The notes under the pieces are model-generated. The model had not been told where the DNA came from. It worked only from the letters and a program-made list of their open reading frames with translations, and did no database searches. Below, one piece after another: positions 3,535-21,816 of a DNA stretch of 57,820 bases. The stretch is from Campylobacteraceae bacterium (lineage in GTDB: Bacteria; Campylobacterota; Campylobacteria; Campylobacterales; Sulfurospirillaceae). Position 1 is the stretch's first letter. The number at the start of each line of letters is the position of its first letter. The DNA is taken from assembly GCA_026988975.1 (NCBI GenBank), contig JALSKH010000006.1, positions 1 through 57,820 of the forward strand, written 5' to 3'. Both the position numbers and the translations under genes were made by a program.

Positions 3535-3774
3535 ATGATACGAGAAGTAATAAGACCACAATGCAATAATTTTACTATTAATATACCAAATAGTTATGTT
3601 AATAGAGAAGTTGAATTTATAATGTTTCCTCTTGATGAACCTGAAATTACAGATGAAGTAAAAAAACAAAATATATCAGTTTTGGGTGGAAGCTTACATA
3701 AATATTCAGATCCATCAAAAATTGATTTAGAAGATAAAGCTTGGGAATTGCATATTGAAGATAAATACACATGA
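3535..3774 (+). CDS. Antitoxin of PIN-domain TA module 1
   Basis: 79 aa, preceded by AGAGG 8 bp upstream of the ATG. The N-terminus (REVIRPQCNNFTINIPNSYV) looks like a short beta-strand DNA-binding segment as found in AbrB/VapB-type antitoxins; the acidic C-terminus (DLEDKAWELHIEDKY) is the likely toxin-binding tail. The stop overlaps the toxin ATG by 4 bp. It is clearly paralogous to the protein at 21522-21770 (shared start MIREVI, FTINIP, EFIMFPLDE). Function is inferred from position next to a PIN toxin. Confidence 0.82.
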   Translation: MIREVIRPQCNNFTINIPNSYVNREVEFIMFPLDEPEITDEVKKQNISVLGGSLHKYSDPSKIDLEDKAWELHIEDKYT

Positions 3775-4139
3775 TACTTTTAGATGCAAATTATATTTTA
3801 AGATTTCTACTTAAAGATAATCTTAAAATGTATGAGATTGCAAGGGATTGTATTGTCAATAATAACTGTGTAGTAATCAATGAAGTTTTAGCAGAAGTTG
3901 TATTTGTTTTATCAAAAGTTTATAAAGTTACAAAACAAGATATATCAAAATCGTTAATAAATATTTTAGAATATGATAACATCATCATAAATGATAAAAA
4001 TACAATAGTAAACTCGTTAGAAATATTTGAAAATAAAAACTTAGACTTTGTAGATTGTATTTTATGTGCAAAATCAAAAGAATATAGAGTTAGAACATTT
4101 GATAAAAAACTAAATAAGTGTATCGATAGCTTCCTATAG
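3771..4139 (+). CDS. PIN-domain ribonuclease toxin 1 (VapC-like)
   Basis: 122-residue PIN domain. The acidic metal site can be read as Asp5 (LLDANYI), Glu38 (INEVLAE), Asp95 (FVDCILCA) and Asp111 (TFDKKLNK), all present. VapC-type toxins cleave tRNA or rRNA at a single site when released from antitoxin; the target here is unknown. The second PIN protein (21164-21529) has one residue less and the same key positions. The last codons of this gene (CTTCCTATAG) already resemble the rsmG 3' sequence around 3320, so the duplicated rsmG segment overlaps its stop. Confidence 0.87.
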   Translation: MILLDANYILRFLLKDNLKMYEIARDCIVNNNCVVINEVLAEVVFVLSKVYKVTKQDISKSLINILEYDNIIINDKNTIVNSLEIFENKNLDFVDCILCAKSKEYRVRTFDKKLNKCIDSFL

Positions 4140-12710: not shown

Positions 12711-12824
12711 TTTACTGTCATCTTGTTTAGGAAGTAAATTCCCAAACAATTCACGCGCTACTAAAGCTAGACCTGTCGGTCAGAACTTCGTTTTACTGTC
12801 ATCTTGCTAAGGAAGTAAATTCCC
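12711..12824. repeat. 33-bp direct repeat, 81-bp period, between binding-protein and permease genes
   Basis: The sequences at 12711-12743 and 12792-12824 are the same except for two bases: TTTACTGTCATCTTG, then TTTA or CTAA, then GGAAGTAAATTCCC. The end of each unit can form a small hairpin (GGAA/TTCC). Between the copies lies a second palindrome, GACCTGTCGGTC (12770-12781), followed by AGAACTTCG. The words ACTGTC, AGGA..AAAT and GGTC.GA recall the loop of the hairpins at 13828 and 16803, so it may be a divergent or broken member of the same family. Non-coding. Confidence 0.7.
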
Positions 12825-13827: not shown

Positions 13828-13909
13828 TAGACCTCTTTTGAAGCTGTCTCTTTGAGGACAAATCCTCCCGTTGGTCTGAGCCTCACGAGATAGTTTCAAA
13901 AGAGGTCTA
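13828..13909. repeat. Hairpin element A (23-bp stem, 36-nt conserved loop)
   Basis: Arms 13828-13850 (beginning TAGACCTCTTTTGAA) and 13887-13909 pair over 23 positions, two as G-T on the plus strand. The 36-nt loop (13851-13886) contains GACAAATCCTCCC and TTGGTCTGAGCCTCAC, which recur almost unchanged in element B at 16803-16883. The arm differences between A and B are compensatory. The outermost TAG of the right arm is, on the minus strand, the stop codon of the ATPase gene. It has no T-run and an unusually large conserved loop, so it is not a simple terminator. Confidence 0.8.
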
Positions 13910-15409
13910 TTCTTGTGTTATTAAAGCCAAAAGCTTGTCTCTATCAACTTGCGAAGTCTTCTCTTCACCCAAAATTTTGCCTTTATTCATCACTAAAATC
14001 CTATCTGTGACATCAACTAGTTCATCTATATCGCTTGATATCATCAAGACTGCACTCTTTTTTGTGCTCTCTTGCAGATACAGACTTATATCTCTTCTTG
14101 ATTTTATATCAACTCCTTGAAAAGGCTCGTCTAGTATAACTATATTGTGTTTCATCAAAAGCCATCTTGCCACTATCACTTTTTGTTGATTTCCTCCCGA
14201 GAGAGACTCTATATAAGCATCATAACCTTCACACTTTATACCCATATCACCGATCATTCGTTTTGCTGCTTTTATCTCATTTTTCTTGGAAAGCACACCC
14301 ATTTTTGAGAAAAAATCCAAAAATGGAAGCGTGATGTTATCTTTTATGGACTCTTCTGGTACGATCGCATTAACAGCTCTATTTTCAGGAACCATATGTA
14401 CACCATGTTTGATAGCCTGGTGGATATTTTTAAAAACTACTCTCTCATCTTTTATGATGATTTCACCGCTAACTGGTTTTCTTATACCAAAAAGTGTCTC
14501 TGCAAGCTCAGTTTTGCCTGCACCTATAAGACCTAAAAGACCAACAATTTCACCAGAATATATCTTTATATTTATAGGCTCACTACTTCCCTCAACAACA
14601 AGCTCTTTTAACTCTAAAAGTAGATTTTTTTCACTCTTGATTTCATCTTTTCTCTCAAATTCACTCTCTAAATCTCCAACCATAGCTTTGACTATCTGTT
14701 GTACCTCTACAGGCTGATGCAAAACTCCACCAAACTTACCATCTTTTATAACACCAACTCTGTTTGATATTTTTTTCACTTCCGCTAAATAGTGAGAGAC
14801 AAAAAGTATCGAAACTCCTTCATCTCTTAATTTATATAGCGTCTCAAAAAGCATAGTAGCTTCACGATCGGATATAGAAGATGTCGGCTCATCCAAAATC
14901 AATAGCTTGGGCTTTTTAGCTAGAGCTCTTGCTATTATGATCATTTGTTTTTGGCTTTGGGTTATATCTTGTATGTTTTGCTCCATATCCAGATGTTCCA
15001 AATTCATCTTTTTTGCTATCTCTTTTGCTCTTTTTAGTATGCTCTTTTTCTCATAGATAAATCTTGCTTCAGGAGAGACTATCATATCTAGTGCGAGATT
15101 TTCAGCTACGCTCATATTTTGTACGATCCCCTGCTCTATGCTTTGATGCACAACTTGGATGCCTGCCTCATAAGCATCTCTTGGGGATTCAAATTTAACC
15201 AATTTGCCATCTATATATATCTCGCCCTCATAATCGGCATAATATCCACATATTATCTTTATAAAGGTCGATTTGCCGGCACCATTTGCACCAACAATTG
15301 AGAAAATCTCACCCTCATAAAAGTCAAAACTGACATCTTTTAAAGCCTTTGTAGCCCCAAAAGTTTTGGATATGTTTTTCGCTTCTATTATCGGTTTAGA
15401 TGATTTCAT
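13907..15409 (-). CDS. Sugar ABC transporter ATP-binding protein (RbsA/MglA-like, tandem ATPase)
   Basis: 500 aa with two ABC domains. The first has Walker A GANGAGKST at about residues 40-48, signature ITQSQKQM and Walker B LLILDEPTS; the second has the shortened Walker A GLIGAGKTE near 290, signature LSGGNQQK and Walker B IVILDEPF. This tandem form is typical of ribose/galactose/AI-2 importers. It powers uptake with the RbsC-like permease and binding protein. The stop codon TAG is the first triplet of hairpin element A. Its 5' end overlaps the kinase gene by 14 bp. Confidence 0.92.
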   Translation of the reverse strand: MKSSKPIIEAKNISKTFGATKALKDVSFDFYEGEIFSIVGANGAGKSTFIKIICGYYADYEGEIYIDGKLVKFESPRDAYEAGIQVVHQSIEQGIVQNMSVAENLALDMIVSPEARFIYEKKSILKRAKEIAKKMNLEHLDMEQNIQDITQSQKQMIIIARALAKKPKLLILDEPTSSISDREATMLFETLYKLRDEGVSILFVSHYLAEVKKISNRVGVIKDGKFGGVLHQPVEVQQIVKAMVGDLESEFERKDEIKSEKNLLLELKELVVEGSSEPINIKIYSGEIVGLLGLIGAGKTELAETLFGIRKPVSGEIIIKDERVVFKNIHQAIKHGVHMVPENRAVNAIVPEESIKDNITLPFLDFFSKMGVLSKKNEIKAAKRMIGDMGIKCEGYDAYIESLSGGNQQKVIVARWLLMKHNIVILDEPFQGVDIKSRRDISLYLQESTKKSAVLMISSDIDELVDVTDRILVMNKGKILGEEKTSQVDRDKLLALITQE

Positions 15410-16607
15410 TTATCACTTCATCTATATCTTGGTATTTTGAAGTTATCAACTTCGAAGCAATCTGTAAAACTCTCTTTTCGACTTGGGCTCTTCTGTCTAA
15501 ATCTTCTATGCCTGCAATATCAGCTACTTTTGCCAAACCTACTGTTCTTCTAAACATTTCACAAGCCATAAAACCTATAGAATCATCAAATATATCCCTT
15601 ATAAAACTATCGGCAAAGTACTCATAATGCTCCATTCCTTCTGGATAATCAAACTGCAAGGATTTTATTTTTTTCTCGTGATTTAACATATTTGCTTTAA
15701 ATTTTTGGGCAAACAGATCCCAAGTATCTTTTATCATTCCGATGACATAATCTTTGTACTCTTGTTCATTATCTTCTAGTGACAGATAAGACATCGCAAG
15801 ATTGGCTAAGTATATACCAACATCAAAACCTATCGGCCCATAAAATGCAAATTCCGGGTCTATCACAAATGTCTCTTCTTGATTTAGCATGATGCTTCCA
15901 CTATGCAAATCACCATGCAAAAGAGCTTGCGCCTCACTCATGAACTTATACCTCATCTTTGCTACGGCTACTTTTATATCTCGGTTTTCTCTGAAGCTCT
16001 TAACAACTGACATATCAAGTCTTGGGTTGTACTCATTTGTTTCATTCTCTTCGTATGGATGAGTAAATATAAAATCCTCTGTTATCTTGCAGAGTTCTAT
16101 GTTTATGAACTTTTTCACACTCTCTTTTTTCTCTTTAGAGCTTAAAAAAAGATCGGTCGTATAAAAAAGAGTATCTGCTAAAAATGTAGATATATGTTCA
16201 CTTAGTTTTGGAAACAGAACTCTGTTTATCATTTCGCCTCGTAAAATTTTATGTTTATCTAAGTTTTGCATCACAACTAACGACATTTCGTGAGAACTAT
16301 AGTAGATTTGGGGTACAAATTGTGGGCATATCTCTTTTTCTATCTTTAGCGCCTCTATCTCAAATACCATTCTAACTCTACTTAGTGGATACTCAGCACC
16401 AACACACCTTAGATACGGAACAGCCTGCTTTAAAATAAGACTTTTTCTAGGACTTTTTATTATATATACAAAATTCAGATTTCCATCGCCTATCTCACTG
16501 ACTTCAAGCCTGTCTATAGATTCATCTTCATCTAAAAGCAGTGATCTAACCTGCGGCGTCTCATCTATATACTCTTTTATCAAGTCATTATTAAGCTCTT
16601 TATACAT
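15396..16607 (-). CDS. mtnK: 5-methylthioribose kinase (MtnK-like)
   Basis: 403 aa, in the aminoglycoside-phosphotransferase/choline-kinase fold. The catalytic loop LLHGDLHSGSIM (around residue 233) and metal-binding VIDPEFAFYGPIGFD (around 250) match the MtnK signature closely. It phosphorylates 5-methylthioribose at C1; homologues in DHAP-shunt clusters also accept 5-deoxyribose. First gene of the operon, with GAGG before the ATG. Having a kinase with a sugar importer, rather than the MTA phosphorylase MtnP, points to scavenging of external free 5-methylthioribose, or of pentose made by an MTA nucleosidase encoded elsewhere. Confidence 0.9.
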   Translation of the reverse strand: MYKELNNDLIKEYIDETPQVRSLLLDEDESIDRLEVSEIGDGNLNFVYIIKSPRKSLILKQAVPYLRCVGAEYPLSRVRMVFEIEALKIEKEICPQFVPQIYYSSHEMSLVVMQNLDKHKILRGEMINRVLFPKLSEHISTFLADTLFYTTDLFLSSKEKKESVKKFINIELCKITEDFIFTHPYEENETNEYNPRLDMSVVKSFRENRDIKVAVAKMRYKFMSEAQALLHGDLHSGSIMLNQEETFVIDPEFAFYGPIGFDVGIYLANLAMSYLSLEDNEQEYKDYVIGMIKDTWDLFAQKFKANMLNHEKKIKSLQFDYPEGMEHYEYFADSFIRDIFDDSIGFMACEMFRRTVGLAKVADIAGIEDLDRRAQVEKRVLQIASKLITSKYQDIDEVINEII

Positions 16608-16630
16608 AAATTTTCCTCTTTTTAAATAAC

Positions 16631-16666
16631 TTATATAGGAACATAACTCTATATGTACCTATATAA
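16631..16666. promoter_or_regulatory. 36-bp near-palindrome upstream of mtnK, probable GntR operator
   Basis: TTATATAGGAACATA (16631-16645) and TATGTACCTATATAA (16652-16666) are reverse complements at 14 of 15 positions around a 6-base centre. It lies 24 bp upstream of the mtnK ATG, in the leader of an operon that encodes a GntR regulator. The 296-bp gap 16608-16903 also holds hairpin element B and the nuoA promoter region (TATGAT at 16785-16790); nothing else is seen there. Confidence 0.6.
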
Positions 16667-16802
16667 CCCATCATACACTTAGGAGTATTAAAAAAATATA
16701 AAAGTTAGTAGGTTTTTATATTTAATATTTTCAATGTAACAAAATTACACATATTTTTTTACTTTTGTTTTAAACTTCTTTGGTTATGATACATAAAAAT
16801 TA

Positions 16803-16883
16803 TAGACTTCTTCTAAGAGTATTTCTTAGAGACAAATCCTTCCTTTGGTCTGAGTCTCACGAAACACTCTTAGAAGAAGTCTA
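16803..16883. repeat. Hairpin element B (23-bp stem, 35-nt conserved loop)
   Basis: Arms 16803-16825 (beginning TAGACTTCTTCTAAGAGT) and 16861-16883 pair over 23 positions with one mismatch (18 perfect at the base). The 35-nt loop (16826-16860) carries GACAAATCCTTCC and TTTGGTCTGAGTCTCAC, differing from element A at only a few places. It sits 20 bp before the nuoA ATG, between its presumed promoter and the gene, so it would be part of the nuo leader mRNA. Confidence 0.8.
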
Positions 16884-16903: not shown

Positions 16904-17266
16904 ATGTCAACACAAATTGTTTTAGCATCTTCCATTATATTTATATTGGTAACTGCTATTCCTCTGCTCTTTCTTGCTACTAGTAAATTGGGTCCTAGAC
17001 TCAAAAAAGGTAGAGAAAAAAACATCTCATATGAAAGTGGTGTTACCAAATCCATAGGAAGTAGCGGTACTCCTTTTAGTGTAAAATTCTATCTTGTGGC
17101 GCTTCTTTTTGTTTTATTTGATGTGGAGATTATATTTATGTTTCCTTGGGCTGTAAATGTGCGAGAACTCGGCTTGTTTGGTATAGCTGAAATGTTTTCG
17201 TTTATGGCACTCCTGTTAGCAGGATTGATCTATGTATATAAAGCAAAGGCTCTGACATGGCAGTAA
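16904..17266 (+). CDS. nuoA: NADH-quinone oxidoreductase subunit A
   Basis: Membrane subunit at the junction of the hydrophilic and membrane arms of complex I. 120 aa with three helices. The conserved ISYESGV loop and the FDVEIIFMFPWAV segment (acidic residues in helix 2) are present. AGGGA precedes the ATG, and hairpin element B lies just upstream. The last codons overlap the nuoB start. First gene of the plus-strand half of the split nuo locus. Confidence 0.93.
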   Translation: MSTQIVLASSIIFILVTAIPLLFLATSKLGPRLKKGREKNISYESGVTKSIGSSGTPFSVKFYLVALLFVLFDVEIIFMFPWAVNVRELGLFGIAEMFSFMALLLAGLIYVYKAKALTWQ

Positions 17267-21149: not shown

Positions 21150-21188
21150 ATGTATCACTAGTATTAGATATTAGCGATACATTTATTT
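21144..21188. terminator. Inverted repeat between nuoF and the convergent toxin gene
   Basis: AAATAAATGTATC (21144-21156) and GATACATTTATTT (21176-21188) form a perfect 13-bp stem around a 19-base loop, spanning the nuoF stop and the toxin 3' end. AT-rich but positioned where a bidirectional terminator is expected. It also marks the exact point where the nuo operon is broken. Confidence 0.6.
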
Positions 21189-21529
21189 AGTTTTTTATCA
21201 AATGTTACTATCTCATCTTCGCTTGAATATGCACACAATAAACAATCAACAAAGTCTAATTTTTTGATTTTAAATATCTCAAATGCTCGTTCTATTACAC
21301 TTAAATTTGATACAAAAATGTTATCAAAGCCTATTAATCTTGTTAACTGATTTGAAATATCTATTTTTGAAATTTTATAAACCCCAAATAACACATAAAC
21401 AACTTCTGCCAATACTTCATTTGAAATAAAAACATTTTTTACTGTCAATATCTCTTCTGCAATTTTTGCCATTTTAATATCATCATTAACCAAATATCTA
21501 ATGATATAATTTGTATCTACCCTAATCAT
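21164..21529 (-). CDS. PIN-domain ribonuclease toxin 2 (VapC-like)
   Basis: 121 aa from the ATG at 21529, which overlaps the antitoxin stop by 8 bp; longer readings add 13 residues out of the antitoxin gene. Acidic active-site residues fall at the same positions as in toxin 1 (Asp5, Glu38, Asp95, Asp111). Shared blocks NEVLAEVV, LDFVDC and TFDKKLNKCI make the two modules clear paralogues. The target RNA is unknown. It lies at the junction where nuoG would be expected. Confidence 0.87.
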   Translation of the reverse strand: MIRVDTNYIIRYLVNDDIKMAKIAEEILTVKNVFISNEVLAEVVYVLFGVYKISKIDISNQLTRLIGFDNIFVSNLSVIERAFEIFKIKKLDFVDCLLCAYSSEDEIVTFDKKLNKCIANI

Positions 21530-21770
21530 TTTGTGTGAATTTATCCAAAATATGATTTTGCCATGCACTATCTTCTAGGGAAATTTTTACATTATCTGCA
21601 TATTTGTTAAACACGCCCCTTAATGATTTTTTATTTTTTTTCTTCATGTCTTGAACTATCTCTTTTTCATCAAGGGGAAACATTATAAATTCAATTTCTC
21701 TGCCTACATAATTTGTCGGAATATTTATAGTAAAATTTGTATATTGTGGCTTGATTACTTCTCGTATCAT
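21522..21770 (-). CDS. Antitoxin of PIN-domain TA module 2
   Basis: 82 aa from ATG 21770 (MIREVIKPQ), preceded by AGAGG 8 bp upstream as in module 1; a longer in-frame start would add 11 residues read through the operator region. It is paralogous to the antitoxin at 3535-3774. The C-terminal acidic tail (SLEDSAWQNHILDKF) is the likely toxin-binding region. Confidence 0.82.
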   Translation of the reverse strand: MIREVIKPQYTNFTINIPTNYVGREIEFIMFPLDEKEIVQDMKKKNKKSLRGVFNKYADNVKISLEDSAWQNHILDKFTQND

Positions 21771-21786
21771 TATTTGACCTCTTAAA

Positions 21787-21816
21787 GTTAAAAGATGCCT
21801 CATTTTATCTTTTAAC
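21787..21816. promoter_or_regulatory. Palindromic operator of PIN TA module 2
   Basis: GTTAAAAGAT (21787-21796) and ATCTTTTAAC (21807-21816) form a perfect 10-bp inverted repeat with a 10-base spacer, 16 bp upstream of the antitoxin start. The core AAAAGAT/ATCTTTT is shared with module 1. Confidence 0.65.

Follow-up and report, generated by a model that had tools for sequence, protein, structure and literature searches.

What kind of element are the two similar hairpins that this stretch of DNA carries between its genes, and why do their stems remain paired when the paired sequences differ? Both lie in the window, the whole 57,820-nt stretch of a Campylobacteraceae contig that was analysed, and both have the architecture described in an earlier sequence-only reading, namely 23-bp stems enclosing loops of 36 and 35 nt. 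All coordinates below refer to the forward strand. Copy 1 consists of a left arm at 13828..13850 and a right arm at 13887..13909, which are 91% complementary (21 of 23 positions form Watson-Crick pairs), separated by a 36-nt loop at 13851..13886. The loop contains the conserved core GAGGACAAATCCTCCCGTTGGTCTGAGCCTC at 13854-13884, delimited by alignment with 39 other copies from the same genome, and the covariance model described below matches 13837-13900. The last three bases of the right arm (CTA, 13907-13909) form the stop codon of a minus-strand ABC-ATPase gene at 13907-15409, in agreement with the coincidence of hairpin end and stop codon reported earlier. Copy 2 has 23-nt arms at 16803..16825 and 16861..16883 (96% complementary, 22 of 23 Watson-Crick pairs) and a 35-nt loop at 16826..16860. 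Its core GAGACAAATCCTTCCTTTGGTCTGAGTCTC, placed at 16829-16858 by the own-genome alignment and the covariance model, carries GAGAC/GTCTC, a compensated variant of GAGGC/GCCTC. The loop blocks previously described as common to both hairpins, GACAAATCCT, TTGGTCTGAG and CTCACGA, are indeed present in each.

Copy 2 ends 20 nt upstream of an ORF encoding 120 aa (16904..17266, plus strand) that is followed by further nuo-like ORFs and, judged by its sequence, is probably nuoA, as the earlier assignment had it. The hairpin thus sits between the nuoA ribosome-binding site and a putative −10 box of the nuoA promoter, TATGAT at 16785..16790 (plus strand). This box belongs to a block that is conserved in congeners lacking the element, as seen by comparison with the empty sites L193, L195, L196, L198 and L199.

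The hairpins belong to a dispersed family. Queried with copy 1, BLAST returns 41 places in the source genome (G000, Campylobacterales; 2.26 Mb in 243 contigs), and 42 strong copies (E ≤ 3e-7) emerge from a covariance model trained on 40 own-genome ones. The own-genome sequence analysed comprised the stretches around the copies; apart from C227, which is a truncated half, the copies extracted and inspected have paired arms. Extending the covariance search beyond the genome, as the sequence-only reading had proposed, model R1 identifies copies in 20 of 120 close genomes (the source included), representing 9 of 48 genera and 1-42 copies each. The relatives with the element form a patchy minority and have 1-20 copies each. 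Among 397 genomes of the class, model R2, which describes the type with a continuous or GNA/GGA-interrupted stem, recovers the element in 13. An exact-pattern scan returns at least 98 named contigs, all from Campylobacterota among the matches listed, and searches of phages, plasmids and IMG/VR yielded none. The earlier reading would have had to be given up if the genome held no further copies or if their loops diverged; instead there are 42 strong copies with a conserved core. Literature searches covering open-licence papers returned no description of the family, which is apparently undescribed.

Across the 157 elements sampled for anatomy, the 31-nt core GAGGnCAAATCCTCCCNNNGGTCTGAGCCTC is nearly invariant. 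Its consensus is GAGG(R)CAAATCCTCCCNNNGGTCTGAGCCTC, and variation is limited to the NNN triplet and the compensated replacement of GAGGC/GCCTC by GAGAC/GTCTC. The arms span 18-36 bp and are nearly perfectly paired, with perfect arms reaching 36 bp, and are mostly unrelated from copy to copy; a subset has TAGACTTCTTTTAAAACTATTTC in common and many others share nothing. The elements are about 75-105 bp long and non-coding. The 59 type-B elements align without gaps over 75 columns, where 98.5% of model-pair cells are standard pairs and 542 cells have changed on both sides, a result matched by none of 500 shuffles. The observation that stems differ yet stay paired is well founded. Overall, stem pairing of 96% and 98.5% of cells is far above shuffles (0/500) and slid controls. 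Type-B pairing drops to background right after position 22, and type-A elements are still paired at positions 27-30 (62% Watson-Crick vs 31% background, p = 3e-28). We note that the apex triplet read on the complementary (bottom) strand is mostly AAC, AAA, GAA, GCA or GTA, that is, purine first and A or C last, and that GNA/GGA often interrupts the stem below the core; by sequence, this pattern is suggestive of sheared G.A pairing.

The family is absent from Rfam. The Rfam search of the window at gathering score matched only a tRNA, and an E-value search gave chance miRNA-like matches, all below threshold. Intrinsic terminators are likewise rejected, since the stems are AT-rich and T-runs are enriched on neither side, which bears out the previous judgement that these are not typical terminators.

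The imperfections of the stems suggest which strand matters. In 2999 stem cells from 146 elements, the mismatches on the top strand, as presented, are A.C 90, C.T 35, G.T 16 and G.A 5. The same cells on the bottom strand give G.T 90 vs A.C 16 (p = 1e-13) and G.A 35 vs C.T 5 (p = 1e-6), with p-values that overstate independence because orthologous copies are counted separately. The source genome alone shows the same imbalance (A.C 19, G.T 6 on the top strand), and it recurs in every gene context, for example A.C 30 and G.T 5 where the mRNA contains the top strand (>E>), 15 and 4 where it contains the bottom strand (<E<). The bottom-strand order of G.T, G.A, A.C and C.T is the order of mismatch stability in a folded strand. 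Thus, the mismatches are those that a folded bottom strand tolerates, indicating that the complementary strand is the favoured fold. A simple replication-strand C-to-T bias would produce the opposite mismatch bias, because G is in excess in the top strand of the flanks (skew +0.08). The simplest reading is selection for, or a process acting via, the folded bottom strand. On this spectrum we reject RNA covariation of the top strand, and the earlier proposal that the paired changes signify structural selection on the strand it read finds no support in the form given. The notion that stems are simply depleted of G.U was dropped once the mismatches of the complementary strand had been counted.

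These data fit, in part, a set of non-coding RNA genes encoded on the bottom strand, one per locus, whose products would act in trans as hairpin RNAs. The mismatches are mostly G.U- and G.A-compatible on that strand. Calculated energies with two parameter sets favour the bottom over the top strand in 131 and 120 of 154 copies, and the core is predicted to fold as CAGACC/GGAUUUG with a conserved G.U pair and a heptaloop NNNGGGA. However, G.U accounts for only ~2.5% of stem cells despite the 542 double changes, and neither a bottom-specific promoter-like enrichment nor a downstream T-run is apparent. Moreover, at 101 of 133 sites a gene starts in the opposite direction at a median of 37 nt from the bottom-strand 5' end, which leaves little room for a promoter. 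Overall, we regard such RNA genes as unlikely.

Comparison of sites between genomes suggests another origin for the paired stems. The cross-comparison contains 27 groups of linked sites, a few of which owe their link to a MITE or to loose matching and not to true orthology. At some orthologous sites the arms retain an identity of 0.53-0.63, against 0.49 for random sequence, while the flanks score 0.72-0.95 and the core 0.90-1.0. The glmM leader carries the element in five species, all with the rare GAGA/TCTC core variant; between species the arms fall to near-random identity, with flanks 0.55-0.90 alike. Replacement of the whole element at this locus is ruled out, since all five species retain the locus-specific GAGA variant and have different arms. 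Elsewhere, as at L086/L143, the arms are more conserved than the flanks.

At other loci the core is reversed in place. The cleanest case is L044 vs L047, where both 30-bp arms and the flanks shown are identical and the core alone is inverted. Core inversion is also observed in L046/L146, L105/L164, L038 vs L039/L016, L075/L115 and L094 vs L028/L042; these flips are comparisons between assemblies, most of which are MAGs. Polymerase template switching between inverted repeats is published as leaving such a signature of arm homogenisation and spacer inversion (PMC8604942), and it occurs at quasipalindromes of E. coli with a strand bias (PMC7202029). Homogenised arms together with a spacer inverted in place are found at L044/L047 and at others, which suggests that template switching is the main reason that the stems stay paired. 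It accounts most economically, rather than RNA selection, for variable Watson-Crick stems with few G.U pairs, and we infer that it is also the cause of arm perfection and core flipping. Template switching by itself would not predict the bias of the bottom-strand mismatches.

Two rearranged copies may be mentioned here. A single element in L160, near 2297-2353, combines a left arm matching one member of the inverted doublet at L091:1487-1812 with a right arm matching its partner; it is a chimera whose arms do not pair, probably produced by deletion between the two copies, or by an assembly join. In L094, from about 7235, the core and right arm are directly repeated ~50 bp downstream, a tandem partial duplication that is possibly a slippage product.

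Mapping of the copies against gene ends, another suggestion of the earlier reading, places them a few to a few tens of nucleotides before start codons or after stop codons. In the top-strand frame, with gene contexts taken from ORFs rather than curated gene calls, the arrangements are >E> 56, <E> 45, <E< 22 and >E< 10, and the gene to the right points the same way as the top strand in 101 cases vs 32. Orientation is also biased relative to replication. In three complete genomes, 34 of 42 copies place the bottom strand on the leading-strand template (p = 7e-5), given dnaA at about position 400 and a terminus assumed half way round. The element could accordingly be a conserved chromosomal site, a leading-strand-template hairpin selected for replication restart or chromosome organisation and occasionally duplicated, and the survival of the core at orthologous sites after the arms have randomised is in keeping with this. 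Against this stand a patchy distribution, with 0 copies in complete relatives such as G009, a copy number that ranges from 1 to 42, and the opposite orientation of 8 of the 42 copies. The orientation bias could instead come from fork-direction-dependent flipping. We find this reading rather improbable.

Positions just before start codons and the 101 vs 32 co-orientation are also what one would expect of a cis-acting structured RNA, a riboswitch-like or protein-binding hairpin carried by the 5' leader of the gene that follows, for example nuoA. Some sites with conserved upstream promoter-like blocks retain the element in 4-6 species, again as such a leader would. Against this, the top strand has A.C rather than G.U mismatches even at >E> sites, the neighbours are unrelated housekeeping genes, and Rfam offers no match. 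Orthologous sites also differ in which way the core faces relative to the gene, and a search for a fixed orientation toward a coherent gene set failed for these same two reasons, flipping and unrelated genes. A cis-acting leader RNA is therefore distinctly improbable.

The nuoA leader provides direct evidence on mobility. In five congeners (L193, L195, L196, L198 and L199) the promoter-to-start gap is empty; neither arm is present, and the conserved upstream block continues directly into the leader. As read from these alignments, the most likely history is insertion of the entire copy 2 within its own lineage, and the five empty sites indicate that the element moves. The empty sites are ~80% identical, too diverged for any target-site duplication to be read. 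Derivation of the arms from the target site by fold-back insertion is not supported, because both arms are missing there. The nuoA leaders of L194 (G004) and L197 (G001) hold a MITE-like sequence ending in GTAAGGTCAG, so that one promoter-to-start gap has taken different small elements in different species. Inverted doublets in L091, L116, L135, G382, G059 and G338, together with the partial tandem copy in L094, show that the elements are duplicated.

Searches for a mobilising enzyme found none. No linked transposase was found near the copies, and no gene recurs beside them except at shared housekeeping loci, which suggests no autonomous partner. Reverse transcriptase (PF00078) was not found in G000 (42 copies), G001 or G003, and this lack of co-occurrence in high-copy genomes argues against a SINE-like, reverse-transcribed element. 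The RAYT partner proposed from the sequence did not materialise when sought as Y1_Tnp (PF01797): an ordinary REP element moved by RAYT or another Y1 transposase is very improbable, since, for all the small intergenic palindromes, the several inverted doublets and the Y1 transposases of the source genome, Y1_Tnp is absent from G059 (complete, 15 copies), G004, G005 and G049, all of which have copies, most Y1-bearing genomes have no element, the stem is not the conserved part, and there is no fixed GTAG/CGTC foot tag.

Our preferred reading, to which we give a probability of roughly one half, is that the hairpins are small mobile DNA elements of a new hairpin family in Campylobacterota, acted on in trans by a putative factor. 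Each element consists of two arms of 18-36 bp around the conserved 31-nt core, and fresh copies enter intergenic slots such as promoter-to-start gaps. Template switching, in which one arm is copied from the other, would then homogenise and lengthen the arms and flip the core, so that the arms would drift together as one palindrome. The relevant form would be the folded bottom strand, 5'-arm-GAGGCTCAGACCNNNGGGAGGATTTGTCCTC-arm-3', read as ssDNA or RNA by the putative factor. Recognition of this kind would account for the constancy of the core and for why the element spreads and is retained. Several findings speak against this reading. Neither Y1 transposase nor reverse transcriptase follows the distribution of the element, and some loci keep an intact core across species with fully diverged arms, which resembles a host function exercised in place rather than a decaying selfish copy. 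The lack of a readable target-site duplication, the bottom-strand mismatch bias and the conserved arms at L086/L143 also count against it. A bolder version is that the hairpins constitute a new class, mobile or host-used, in which a putative protein reads the conserved single-stranded core on one strand only, the sequence-free arms are continually rewritten by template switching, and the core flips, so that a hairpin able to invert would lie immediately before a gene at each locus; we hold this tentatively, as something to be doubted sooner than believed.

Among known systems, REP, BIME and REPIN elements with RAYT are similar in being small, non-coding intergenic palindromes that number in the tens, sometimes form inverted doublets and have a relevant single-stranded fold (PMC3733652). 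They differ in that REPs conserve the stem and leave the loop free, the reverse of the family described here, which also has no GTAG/CGTC foot tag by position-by-position composition, no Y1 association and, within the searches made, a range limited to Campylobacterota. MITEs are likewise non-autonomous dispersed elements with terminal inverted repeats and insertions recognisable against empty sites, and copy 2 is such an insertion into a conserved site, the five nuoA leaders being without it. The terminal repeats of MITEs are common to all copies and read by a transposase, whereas here the arms differ and no cognate transposase was found. In integron attC sites, what is recognised is the folded bottom strand, and structure is conserved above sequence; these sites have conserved boxes at the stem base and a variable tip. 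The hairpins may be analogous in the first two respects, but their tip is conserved and their base free, and they form no cassette arrays. Small inversions in plastid genomes are invertible hairpin spacers. Template-switched quasipalindromes have the same identical arms and spacers inverted in place (PMC8604942, PMC7202029), but are unrelated single loci with arbitrary spacers rather than tens of dispersed copies of one conserved spacer.

The family is thus a repeat with a conserved loop rather than a conserved stem, and it points to a putative factor recognising the core in folded form, as DNA or RNA. Its paired stem changes resemble classic RNA covariation and yet can mostly be ascribed to template switching of DNA, which calls for caution when RNAs are sought by covariation; the mismatch-strand test separates the two readings. 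It also supplies dozens of natural palindromes for studies of template switching and core inversion.

Other repeats were encountered along the way. The same genome contains two dispersed MITE-like families of ~273 bp, their anatomy typical of MITEs, with ~33-bp terminal inverted repeats beginning GTACCGAACCAAAAGAAACACCAACTAATAG and ACCTTACGCACTATAAACACACCTAGG (L009:3139-3411, L016:2684-2956 and L001:853-1123; L010:243-515, L004:2196-2451 and L035:995-1243), and in L009 one such element directly adjoins a hairpin element. Within the window, a 33-bp direct repeat (12711-12824; 94% identical, 81 bp apart) occupies the gap between genes for a sugar-binding protein and a permease. Finally, positions 3535-4139 and 21164-21803 hold two copies, diverged and in opposite orientation, of a two-gene cassette, ~70% alike in DNA, each of which appears by eye to pair a small antitoxin-like ORF with a PIN-domain-like (VapC-type) ORF.
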